Shown here: piece by piece, positions 6,605-9,070 of the stretch
Numbering within the stretch: position 1 is the stretch's first letter
How the letters are laid out: each line of letters opens with the position of its first letter
Assembly (NCBI RefSeq): GCF_000495475.1
Contig: NZ_ASGZ01000012.1
Span: forward strand, 1-58,425
Source of the DNA: Candidatus Halobonum tyrrellensis G22
GTDB taxonomy: Archaea; Halobacteriota; Halobacteria; Halobacteriales; Haloferacaceae
Reading direction: 5' to 3'
Length of the DNA stretch: 58,425 nt
Translations under genes and position numbers: made by a program
Notes under the pieces: generated by a model
What the model was told of the DNA's origin: nothing
The model's database searches: none
What the model saw: only the letters and a program-made list of their open reading frames with translations

Positions 6605-6626
6605 GCATCCGTATCCACGTGGATGC
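6605..6626. promoter_or_regulatory. Palindromic operator candidate between purB and purN-purH
   Basis: Contains the perfect 12-bp palindrome ATCCACGTGGAT (6613-6624), nested in a wider inverted repeat GCATCC (6605-6610) / GGATGC (6621-6626). It sits about 100 bp upstream of purB and about 60 bp upstream of purN-purH in the shared divergent control region. The adjoining TATA-like AACCGTTTTT at about 6649-6658 is 27-30 bp from the purN-purH start. No purine regulator is identified here. Confidence 0.45.
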
Positions 6627-6682
6627 ATACGCCCGCGGGCCGGACCGCAACCGTTTTTCCGTCGGCGCGGGAGCGGTCGCGT

Positions 6683-8275
6683 ATGCAGGTAGCCGGCATG
6701 GCGAGCAACCGCGGGCGGAACCTCCTGGCCATCGCGGACCGCGCCCCCGGCGGGGCCGAGTTGGCGGTGGTGCTCACGAACGACGCCGACGCGCCGGTGC
6801 TGGAGGCGGCAGCCGAGCGCGGCATTCCGACCGAGGTGGTCCAACGCGACGAGGACGAGGAGCGCGAGGCCCACGAGGCGCGCGTGGTGGAGGCGCTGTC
6901 GGCGTACGACGTCGACCTGGTCTGTCTCGACGGGTACATGCGCGTGCTCACCGACGAGTTCATCGACACGACGCCGACGACGCTCAACGTCCACCCGTCG
7001 CTGCTGCCGTCGTTCAAGGGGCGGAACGCCCACGAGCGGGTGCTCGACGCGGGCGTCAAACAGACCGGCTGTACCGTCCACGTCGTCACCGAGGACGTCG
7101 ACGGCGGCCCCATCGTCACCCAGGAGGCGGTCCCCGTCTACGAGGGCGACGACGAGGCGTCGCTGAAGGAGCGCGTGCTCCACGAGGCGGAGTTCCGCGC
7201 GTACCCCCGCGCGGTGGCAGCGTTCGCGGAGGGCCGCGTCGAGGTGGACGAGGCCGCCGAGACCGTCCGCGTCGACGGCGACGAGGGCGGCGACCTGCCC
7301 GCGCGCCGGACGACCAGCGAGGACCGGGTGCGGGAGCTTCGGTACGGCGAGAACCCCCACCAGGACGCCGCGCTGTACGCCGACACGACGGCGACGGAGG
7401 CGAACGTCGTCGACGCCGAGCAGTTGAACGAGGGGGCGAAGGCGCTGTCGTACAACAACTACAACGACGCCGACGCCGCGTTGAACCTGGTCAAGGAGTT
7501 CGACGACCCCGCGGCCGCGGTGATCAAACACACCAACCCCGCGGGCTGTGCGACGGCGGCGACGCTCGCCGACGCGTACGCCGACGCGCTCTCGACGGAC
7601 GCCAAGTCGGCGTTCGGCGGCATCGTCGCGCTCAACCGCGAGTGCGACGCCGAGACGGCCGAGCGGGTGGCCGACTCGTTCAAGGAGGTGGTGGTCGCGC
7701 CCGGCTACACCGACGACGCGCTCGCGACGCTCTCGGAGAAGTCGAACCTCCGGGTGCTCGACGTGGGCGAGTTGGGCGAGGGCGACGACCGGTACGGCGA
7801 GCGGTTCACCGAGAAACCCGTCGTCGGCGGCCGCCTCGTTCAGGAGCGCGACTTCCAGTCGCCGACCCGGGCGGACCTCGAAGTCGTCACGGAGCGTTCG
7901 CCCACCGACGAGGAGTACGAGTCGCTGCTGTTCGCGTGGCGCGTCATGAAACACGTCAAGTCGAACGGCATCCTGTTCGCGACGGGCACCGAGACGGTCG
8001 GGGTGGGGATGGGGCAGGTGAGCCGCGTGGACGCGGTGACGCTCGCGGCGATGAAGGCGGAGAAGGACGCCGAGGGGAAGTCCGCCGACGGCGCGGTGAT
8101 GGCGTCGGACGCGTTCTTCCCGTTCCCCGACGGCATCGAGGAGGCCGCCGACGCCGGGATCCGAGCGGTGATCCAGCCCGGCGGGAGCGTCAACGACGAC
8201 GACGTGATAGCGGCGGCCGACGACCACGACATGGCGATGGTCTTTACGGGCGACCGGAGCTTCCGTCACTCCTAG
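6683..8275 (+). CDS. purH: Fused GAR transformylase-AICAR transformylase (PurN-PurH without IMP cyclohydrolase domain)
   Basis: Two purine formyl-transfer steps in one 530-aa chain. Residues 1 to about 190 are a PurN-type GAR formyltransferase: MQVAGMASNRGRNL, the folate/catalytic LNVHPSLLPSFKG and VTEDVDGGPIV with the catalytic Asp. From about 205 to the end is the AICAR transformylase half of PurH (LRYGENPHQ, LSYNNYNDADAAL, VIKHTNPAG with the catalytic Lys-His, SAFGGIVALN). The N-terminal MGS-like IMP cyclohydrolase domain of bacterial PurH is absent; in archaea PurO usually does that step. The ATG at 6683 is preferred over upstream GTG because it begins the GART fold and has a TATA-like element 27-30 bp upstream. 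Divergent from purB. Confidence 0.93.
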   Translation: MQVAGMASNRGRNLLAIADRAPGGAELAVVLTNDADAPVLEAAAERGIPTEVVQRDEDEEREAHEARVVEALSAYDVDLVCLDGYMRVLTDEFIDTTPTTLNVHPSLLPSFKGRNAHERVLDAGVKQTGCTVHVVTEDVDGGPIVTQEAVPVYEGDDEASLKERVLHEAEFRAYPRAVAAFAEGRVEVDEAAETVRVDGDEGGDLPARRTTSEDRVRELRYGENPHQDAALYADTTATEANVVDAEQLNEGAKALSYNNYNDADAALNLVKEFDDPAAAVIKHTNPAGCATAATLADAYADALSTDAKSAFGGIVALNRECDAETAERVADSFKEVVVAPGYTDDALATLSEKSNLRVLDVGELGEGDDRYGERFTEKPVVGGRLVQERDFQSPTRADLEVVTERSPTDEEYESLLFAWRVMKHVKSNGILFATGTETVGVGMGQVSRVDAVTLAAMKAEKDAEGKSADGAVMASDAFFPFPDGIEEAADAGIRAVIQPGGSVNDDDVIAAADDHDMAMVFTGDRSFRHS

Positions 8276-8292
8276 AACGAACCTCTTTTAAC

Positions 8293-8343
8293 GGGGTGGC
8301 TTCCTCGCGGCCGGCGGAGCCGGCCGCTGCGGAGAGCCACCCC
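8293..8343. repeat. Nested hairpin 1
   Basis: Outer arms GGGGTGGCT (8293-8301) and AGCCACCCC (8335-8343) enclose inner arms GCGGCCGGC (8307-8315) and GCCGGCCGC (8319-8327) with a GGA loop. All pairs are perfect. Confidence 0.85.
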
Positions 8344-8362
8344 GCCAAAACCCGTTCATGCT

Positions 8363-8385
8363 GTCGGATTCCGGAGAAATCCGAC
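8363..8385. repeat. Hairpin 2
   Basis: Perfect 8-bp arms GTCGGATT (8363-8370) and AATCCGAC (8378-8385) with a 7-nt loop. Confidence 0.85.
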
Positions 8386-8390
8386 TGCCA

Positions 8391-8413
8391 ACAGGACCGC
8401 GCAGCGGTCCTGT
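8391..8413. repeat. Hairpin 3
   Basis: Perfect 10-bp arms ACAGGACCGC (8391-8400) and GCGGTCCTGT (8404-8413) with the 3-nt loop GCA. Confidence 0.85.
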
Positions 8414-8436
8414 GATGCCAAAAGGGCCGCTCGCTC

Positions 8437-8455
8437 GGGCCGCCGGAGGCGGCCC
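8437..8455. repeat. Hairpin 4
   Basis: Perfect 8-bp arms GGGCCGCC (8437-8444) and GGCGGCCC (8448-8455) with a GGA loop, the same loop as the inner stem of hairpin 1. A weaker stem GTGGGC/GCCCCCAC follows at about 8470-8487. Confidence 0.8.
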
Positions 8456-8517
8456 TCGCTCGCGGTGACGTGGGCTACTGCCCCCACAGCGAGACTCCCG
8501 CTACCGCCCATGAAAAA

Positions 8518-8535
8518 TTACTATAACCATAGTAA
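8518..8535. promoter_or_regulatory. AT-rich inverted repeat, operator candidate at the UspA promoter
   Basis: TTACTAT (8518-8524), spacer AACC, ATAGTAA (8529-8535): perfect 7-bp arms. It overlaps the only AT-rich stretch before the UspA gene, so a bound dimer would cover the TATA region. The gene start is 47 bp downstream, leaving room for a short leader with GAGGTG as ribosome-binding sequence. Confidence 0.6.
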
Positions 8536-8581
8536 AGACACAGAAACGCCTAAGGACGCCCGTCACGTAGGTTGAGGTGTA

Positions 8582-9070
8582 ATGAGCGTAAACGCGAGCG
8601 AGACGGGGGAGGCAACGGGGACGAGTGAACTGGAGACGATCCTGCTGGCGGTCGGCGGCACCGACGGCGCGCGCGTCGACTCGCTGGTCGAGGCGGTCCG
8701 GGAGGTCGCCGGTCCGACGGGCGCGCGGGTCGTCGTCGCGCACGTGTTCGACCCGGCGACGTACGACGACACCGTCGACCGCGTCGTCGGCACCGACCGC
8801 GGCGACATCGGCGCGGACGAACTCGCGGCGCGGATGACCGTCGTCCGGGACGTCCAGAAGCGACTCGCCGCCGAGGGCGTCGAGGCCGAGGCCCGCGGTG
8901 CGGTCGGCAACCGCGGCGACTCCGTCGTCGAGATCGCGGATGCCGTCGGCGCCGACCGCGTCGTGATCGGCGGGCGCGAGCGGTCGCCCGCGGGGAAGGC
9001 GCTGTTCGGCAGCACCGCCCAGTCGGTGATGCTCGGCGCGCCCTGTCCGGTGACGTTCGTCCGGGACTGA
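8582..9070 (+). CDS. Universal stress protein, UspA family
   Basis: 162 aa single-domain cytoplasmic Usp. The first strand is ETILLAVGGTDG and the ATP-binding-type motif is VVIGGRERSPAGKALFGSTAQ split over about residues 131-150, followed by PCPVTFVRD at the end. The first 19 residues are an acidic extension. GAGGTG lies 4 nt before the ATG, so unlike many neighbours this mRNA probably has a leader. The perfect inverted repeat in its promoter suggests dedicated control. Monocistronic. Confidence 0.9.
   Translation: MSVNASETGEATGTSELETILLAVGGTDGARVDSLVEAVREVAGPTGARVVVAHVFDPATYDDTVDRVVGTDRGDIGADELAARMTVVRDVQKRLAAEGVEAEARGAVGNRGDSVVEIADAVGADRVVIGGRERSPAGKALFGSTAQSVMLGAPCPVTFVRD

Follow-up and report, generated by a model that had tools for sequence, protein, structure and literature searches.

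A dispersed four-hairpin repeat behind haloarchaeal genes, possibly acting as a two-way gene-end terminator

The stretch of DNA analyzed here (the window, 58,425 nucleotides of the forward strand of contig NZ_ASGZ01000012.1 of Candidatus Halobonum tyrrellensis G22) carries a cluster of hairpins at positions 8279-8465, between two genes of the plus strand. The upstream ORF (6623-8275, plus strand, stop codon TAG at 8273-8275) encodes a PurN-PurH fusion, named after an earlier note on this sequence, and its last 250 residues, which were the part scanned, match the Pfam family AICARFT_IMPCHas. Beyond the hairpins lies an ORF for a UspA-like protein (8582-9070, plus strand), also named after that note. 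The four perfect inverted repeats described there are all present in the sequence, and the two identical GGA loops are those of the hairpins called H1 and H4; the weak fifth hairpin is probably the pairing GTGGG/CCCAC at 8470-8474/8483-8487, and it was not found within the conserved element. The four hairpins are a single element with conserved linkers, in the order H1, ATGC, H2, TGCCA, H3, GATGCC, AAAA, GGG and H4.

H1 (8279-8357, plus strand) begins 3 nt past the purNH stop codon and reads GAACCTCTTTT, stem, AAAACCCGTTC. Its core, consisting of GCGGCCGGC (8307-8315), the loop GGA and GCCGGCCGC (8319-8327), is nested in a 10-bp stem (8292-8301/8335-8344) and in an outer stem of GAAC/GTTC and TTTT/AAAA, all of which form one hairpin of 8279-8357. 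The sequence TCTTTT at 8284-8289 places a T-tract (8286-8289, plus strand) in the 5' arm of H1 and just downstream of the purNH gene, where it is a candidate stop signal for purNH transcripts. The linker ATGC (8358-8361, plus strand), in which A, T and G are nearly invariant among 23 aligned copies, leads to H2 (8363-8385, plus strand; 8 bp, 8363-8370/8378-8385) and H3 (8391-8413, plus strand; 10 bp, 8391-8400/8404-8413, loop GCA). H4 (8427-8465, minus strand) was defined through exact motif copies and alignment A1 and reads CCGCGAGCGAG ... CGAGCGAGCGG with tandem G.A mismatches; its core of 8 bp (8437-8444/8448-8455, loop GGA) is lengthened to 8427-8465 by symmetric TC/TC mismatches, which are GA/GA on the minus strand. 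The AAAA at 8420-8423 is a TTTT tract of the minus strand right after H4 and a candidate stop signal in the antisense direction, so that H4 followed by four T would read as a hairpin terminator on that strand. Over 240 nt, the predicted fold energies are -127.1 kcal/mol for the plus strand (z -5.72) and -148.2 kcal/mol for the minus strand (z -7.68), with 0 of 200 dinucleotide shuffles folding as well on either strand. A palindrome, TTACTATAACCATAGTAA, lies at 8518-8535 between the element and the UspA-like gene and is a possible operator or two-way promoter.

As the earlier note had proposed, BLASTN was run against the same genome and its relatives, and matches were found in both. In its own genome the element matches 48 places at E values up to 10, ten of them besides itself below E 0.005, including copies of H1 behind other genes and of H2-H3-H4 elsewhere. 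The H4 motif CGCGAGCGAG-N(1-30)-CGAGCGAGCGG has 10 exact copies in this genome, that of the window included, and its reversed control has 0; the exact H1 arm occurs six times, with 14 more places at two to three mismatches vs six for the reversed control. Matches at E 0.001 were present in seven of ten chosen relatives, which had been selected because an earlier BLASTN search already matched most of them, and the entire four-hairpin unit was found away from purH in relatives such as G004 (76%, 1-194) and G031 (75%, 8-195). With exact motif copies in the genome and matches in relatives and in genomes of the class, the dispersed repeat family that had been put forward as one of three options is the one that proved right.

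Across the class, H1 was searched for with a model, R1, that matches the window at 8279-8361 with 79 bits; together with a further search it superseded a loose H1 pattern whose 212 matches were mostly noise. At E<=0.01, R1 found H1 in 115 of the 292 genomes of the class. The filters were strict and 15 candidates were scored in each genome, and at E 0.01 per genome a few of the 115 may be due to chance. Among named genomes (37 picked from 80), 15 were matched, with E values below 1e-7 in Natronolimnohabitans innermongolicus, Natrinema hispanicum, Haloterrigena sp. H1, Halorientalis marina and Haloarcula rara. Six of seven Halorubrum genomes searched gave none, and H. halodurans gave one (4e-4). 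The R1 matches were split by hand into the window's family and others, one f4, two f10, one Halorientalis marina and one Haloarcula rara locus being counted as others; family f7 is referred to as Natrialbaceae-type by way of its named members.

None of 72,556 plasmid records and 50,697 phage records matched the window element, and an origin from a plasmid or phage was rejected on this basis. A Natrialbaceae-type copy matched five plasmid records, three of which list no feature there, one of which lists a gene whose end the copy touches and one of which is without annotation; on pHTUR01 of Haloterrigena turkmenica DSM 5511 the copy meets a PAS-domain gene at its annotated end. Like Rfam families, the element has a covarying secondary structure, but unlike them it belongs to none at the cut-off: positions 8100-8700 of the window gave four matches at E values up to 10, the best of which (Bp2_287) scored 22.6 bits vs a cut-off of 70. 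Membership in an Rfam family was rejected, as none reaches the gathering cut-off. Among the open-licence papers listed, judged by their titles and the beginnings of their abstracts, no report of this element family was found.

A structured noncoding RNA was another of the options raised, and what held of it is the covarying structure only. The covariance test of the stems was run on 104 H1 copies aligned to R1, in which 92.0% of the pair cells were standard vs 74.9% in shuffled and 37.9-53.2% in slid versions; this percentage leans upward because the alignment (A3) was fitted to the R1 structure and contains the training copies, and its cells count copies rather than events. Two-sided changes occur in 14 of the 18 H1 pairs. 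At the outermost pair, 68 of the 104 copies have G-C and 35 have C-G. The four U-A pairs of the T4/A4 stem are kept in 98, 102, 104 and 98 of these copies while the G-C pairs vary, and since the former hardly vary, their letters matter beyond pairing. H1 copies follow the pattern GAACCnCTTTT - stem - AAAACCCGTTC or a variant, CAACC...GTTG, whose outer pair is swapped. Some H1 copies are 130-146 nt long instead of about 80 (L185:2179-2324, L268:1118-1250 and L252:1501-1630), with extra sequence inside the stem, which suggests that elements nest or grow.

The linkers ATGC, CTGCTAA/CTGCTGAC, TGATGCC and CAAAAG recur, and the H2-H3 unit can be absent or doubled, its linker being found in 25 of 77 window's-family copies and at least two times in six. 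A set of 25 H2-H3 copies parsed from the 104 matches has 13 distinct H2 arms and 12 distinct H3 arms, with stems of at least 7 bp in 24/25 and 21/25, respectively. Several independent terminators in a row were rejected as a description, given that linkers and hairpin order recur between genomes. The element is a dispersed structured repeat, present in several copies, whose pairing is kept through two-sided changes.

In 101 of 104 copies the better-folding strand is the one antisense to the upstream gene or, where no upstream gene abuts, the one opposite to the orientation of the element itself; this holds for 75/77 of the window's family and 26/27 of the others. The mean antisense advantage is about 13 kcal/mol in the window's family and about 11 kcal/mol in the others; in 138 control windows the strand means are equal and the mean absolute difference is 7.3. 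The sense strand folds with a mean of -85.4 kcal/mol in 190 nt vs -82.2 in control windows. Tandem GA/GA hairpins were counted 79 times on the antisense and twice on the sense strand, and the non-Watson-Crick cells of H1 comprise 53 G.U and 52 G.A on the antisense strand and 26 G.U and 6 G.A on the sense strand. In the 130 nt after H1, AAAA, that is, an antisense T-tract, is present in 67/77 window's-family copies and TTTT in 6/77, and AAAA was found in 17/62 control intergenic windows. By a strict count that required six or more perfectly paired bp, 25/77 of these copies have a hairpin beside the antisense T-tract, vs 4/62 controls.

With gene calls made by our own codon-usage scorer rather than taken from annotation, the distance from a same-strand stop codon to the start of H1 is at most 20 nt in 66 of the 77 window's-family copies, and in 61 of these it lies between -2 and +4 nt. 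By our own estimate, which assumes roughly 3,500 genes, 22 nt each and both strands of 3.5 Mb, about one such copy would be expected by chance. The stop codons are TGA (31), TAA (20) and TAG (15). Among the others, 6/27 copies lie within 20 nt of a sense stop codon, and in an overlapping pattern-based set the stop-adjacent copies numbered 45/52 vs 4/33 in other families. No antisense gene ends within 20 nt of the element's other side in any of the 77 copies, and one does within 60 nt. A sense gene lies upstream in 74 of the 77, and the next gene is on the same strand in 32, convergent in 33 and not called in 9 of these. Two named matches are placed otherwise, that of Halobellus sp. DFY28 about 350 nt past an annotated sense gene and that of Natrononativus amylolyticus between divergent universal stress protein genes.

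The 68 upstream proteins fall into 22 clusters formed by homology, the largest of which unites two CDC48-like paralogues. Fifteen clusters are present in more than one genome, and these are not independent events, since 7 of the 15 window's-family genomes with copies belong to genus g5; by our own count of genus labels, nine of the 15 span at least two genera. Between genomes, H1 copies have an identity of 0.749 where the gene is shared (133 pairs) and of 0.730 where it is not (1,942 pairs); at homologous genes the place is kept, but the stem is hardly more alike than at unrelated genes. The differing stems at shared positions suggest either fast evolution under which only structure is kept or exchange between copies.

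Of the cluster representatives, 20 of 22 were scanned and 18 had a Pfam family, giving a mixed set of housekeeping genes: CDC48-type AAA ATPase, glycosyltransferase, MenB, 2-oxoacid ferredoxin oxidoreductase beta, aCPSF1, PhoU, EtfA, SDR, GATase (which we take to be CarA), DNA polymerase subunit B, thioredoxin reductase, AOR, glutamine synthetase, TrmB, PurH, AstE/AspA, TFIIB and ScpA. A regulon was rejected because these genes are unrelated. The aCPSF1 match (TIGR03675), found in five genomes, is of 365 bits on a 250-aa fragment and lies below the 580-bit cut-off set for the whole protein. As aCPSF1 is described as the general archaeal termination factor, an element behind the matching gene may hint at feedback.

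The purH site itself was examined in loci from 30 of the 57 genomes that have a BLASTN match to the element. H1 was found behind purH at E 0.01 in none of 29 relatives' loci and in none of 80 named loci (best E 0.036), two of which end less than 200 nt after the stop codon. The H4 model matched at E 0.001 in locus L146 and at 0.011 in L140, the latter match being poor on reading. In L146, of genome G034, a sister-type element begins 12 nt after the purH stop codon in the same orientation, with the sequence CCTTTTTC, stem, GAGGAAAAAA, GATCAAAAAGGGCCGCGAGCG..., and two of the 80 named loci (L051 and L081) have an H4-like hairpin with five T on the sense strand after purH. The purH position is thus shared with at least one relative, which bears another subtype, and the view of the purH copy as a recent lineage-specific gain was dropped in light of this element and the two H4-like hairpins. 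In a loose census of tandem-mismatch hairpins at the 80 named purH loci, GA/GA occurred 12 times among hairpins of 12 or more pairs, where the next unrelated class had 5, and 20 vs 15 times at 10 or more pairs; because GA/GA was only mildly the commonest intergenic class, models were used instead.

Two other kinds of hairpin were observed around these loci. One is a second hairpin family, TTTnAGACACGACTGAGCG...GGAGTGTCTAAA, which contains tandem G.A mismatches and has the purH stop codon inside its stem in L037, L047, L056 and L078, and similar sequence is present in L022, L035, L043, L050, L071, L082 and L085. The other is a sister-type composite in which H4 and five to six T are followed by GATCCACATTTTTCGAGG - stem - CGACGAGGAAAAAGGTGG, seen in G000 at C36:12395, 12558, 13360 and 18531 (L104-L107), in L146 at 2076-2185 and in L166. 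The composite is in sense orientation in C36, in opposite orientation behind purH in G034 and likewise in opposite orientation in G006, behind the end of a 2-oxoacid ferredoxin oxidoreductase beta gene. At G000 C36:12395-12590 (L104, L105), a gene 3' end seems to have been duplicated in tandem along with a composite element.

In some genomes, near-identical and sharply bounded copies lie at unrelated sites: 100% over 157 bp in G084, 99.4% over 163 in G149, 96-99% over 175-193 in three of the four copies of G306 and 98% over 262 in G173. The four copies of G087 are 91-96% alike, and lower values were obtained for the fourth G306 copy (77-79%), the G086 copies (83%) and the window's-family copies (mostly 68-95%). 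Since some Natrialbaceae-type copies are near-identical at unrelated sites, the family also spreads, and the repeat has the look of a mobile element in one lineage, whereas in another its positions are kept. With regard to MITEs, which have terminal inverted repeats and a target duplication, the ends of the near-identical copies showed no clear inverted ends when read by eye. Between G356 and a Natrialbaceae-type copy, homology runs exactly up to the first base of H1, which marks a boundary only, as the left flank is shared and the other side differs.

The remaining option of the earlier note, a remnant of an IS200/IS605 element, found no support. No convincing H1 or H4 turned up in 42 IS605 loci, taken from 64 matches across eight genomes; the best E values were 0.012 for H1 (a 45-nt partial match at TnpB locus L324 of the own genome) and 0.15 for H4. 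Because these loci extend for about 1.5 kb from the domain that was matched, some left ends may lie outside them. Short BLAST matches to IS605 loci (17-62 nt) had no consistent end. The search for tnpB relics that had been suggested returned two TnpB matches and no Y1 transposase match in the genome; Y1 transposase was likewise not found in the copy-rich G016 and was present in six of the eight genomes searched.

Bacterial REP, BIME and REPIN sequences are extragenic palindromes that form modular hairpins, as the element does, and in REP/RAYT systems a tag sits at one palindrome end. This tag is GTAG or CGTC (named in the title of PMC3733652), and in the first six columns before ten H4 copies GTAG was found in 0/10 and CGTC in 1/10. 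Unlike these bacterial families, the element is archaeal, low in copy number and made of four distinct hairpins with no consistent tag, and it resides in a genome with no Y1 transposase match. The palindrome-associated transposable elements (PATEs) of Haloquadratum walsbyi, whose palindromes are similar to those of IS605-type transposons, resemble it, according to the excerpts of PMC3119063, in being short, non-coding, palindromic, haloarchaeal and present in several copies, whereas it differs from them, so described, in its lack of a convincing H1 or H4 counterpart at the 42 IS605 loci and in its window's-family copies abutting stop codons.

At gene ends, a close comparison is with Haloferax volcanii, where, in the excerpts of PMC7237163, T stretches are the intergenic termination signal, T5C stops 95% of reporter transcripts and hairpins lie upstream of 503 termination sites. 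As at those sites, there is a T-tract downstream of genes, with hairpins near some sites. Compared by description with the T-stretch motif in these excerpts, the element differs in its four hairpins, its fixed boxes, its T-tracts on both strands and its copies behind homologous genes of different genera.

From this anatomy, with its position at stop codons, covariation, strand bias and T-tracts, we infer that the element may be a modular two-way terminator or boundary of gene ends, a tentative reading to which we give a probability of about 0.45. The transcript of the upstream gene would end at or near the sense T-tract, and transcripts coming from the other side, whether convergent, divergent or antisense, would end at the H4 hairpin and its T-tract, so that the 3' border of the gene would be fenced in both directions. 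Copies would have spread through duplication or transposition and would then have been kept at gene ends. Counting against a terminator are the T-tracts of the window, which have four T only, and the order in the sense direction, in which the hairpin comes after the T-tract, unlike in a classical terminator. Further points against it are that just 6/27 of the other copies abut a sense stop codon, that the matches of Natrononativus amylolyticus and Halobellus sp. DFY28 are placed otherwise and that the strict count of hairpin plus T-tract gave 25/77 in the window's family. In addition, with at most 15 matches per genome (15 candidates scored), the element is hardly the general terminator. A more specific proposal, which we consider unlikely, is a strand-specific, antisense-folded gene-border module that a putative factor would read at stop codons and that would be kept across genera. 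Its parts would be the purine-rich internal loop GGG/GnG between the GAAC and T4/A4 stems together with the tandem G.A stems, and mobile copies might supply the replacement stems by exchange. Little is understood so far of the way in which archaea mark the ends of genes and exclude antisense transcription from them, and intergenic repeats of such kind tend to stay unannotated; the strong covariation, fixed boxes, fixed strand and tight stop-codon distance make this family directly testable.

The element may alternatively be a non-autonomous mobile element of the PATE or REP kind that moved as a folded single strand and has no host function, with stop codons as a harmless or preferred target, an explanation that we regard as somewhat doubtful. 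The near-identical, sharply bounded copies at unrelated sites of some genomes count in its favor, but the fourth G306 copy, the G086 copies and most window's-family copies are less alike. The better folding of one strand also fits; against it, no transposase or IS605 end was found alongside. H1 was not found at purH in the 29 relatives' loci at E 0.01 or in the 80 named loci, which likewise favors it, yet one relative has a sister-type element there, and carriage of the element by homologous genes in different genera is not predicted by random insertion. The spacing from stop codons looks too tight for mere tolerance. One orthologous pair in which homology ends exactly before the first base of H1 (that of G356) is in line with a mobile element, but it is not a clean empty site.

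Two further explanations place the function in RNA. A structured noncoding RNA made from the antisense strand, or the 3' UTR of a convergent gene, acting in trans or binding a protein, would account for the antisense folding bias with its tandem G.A mismatches and for the nearly invariant antisense boxes GAACGGGTTTT and AAAAGnGGTTC around variable stems; we hold it to be improbable, as the next gene is on the same strand in 32 of 74 copies, where no antisense gene supplies the transcript, and Rfam gave no match at the cut-off. A stabilizer of the mRNA 3' end that blocks 3'-5' exonucleases would sit, as the element does, right after stop codons, and the sense strand folds too, but the antisense strand folds better in 101/104 copies and the T-tract, which precedes the hairpins after the stop codon, could end the transcript first, so that this function appears very improbable.

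Many of the f7 loci (the L251 to L302 type, e.g., L292, L304 and L202) share the sequence GTGAAACnCGCGgtnAGTACAG upstream of H1. The same sequence is present without H1 in G356, and it could be a target, a promoter or the end of another repeat. A repeat of about 85 bp at L292:896-981 has many copies in genomes of genus g34, which are 83-94% identical among the matches listed.
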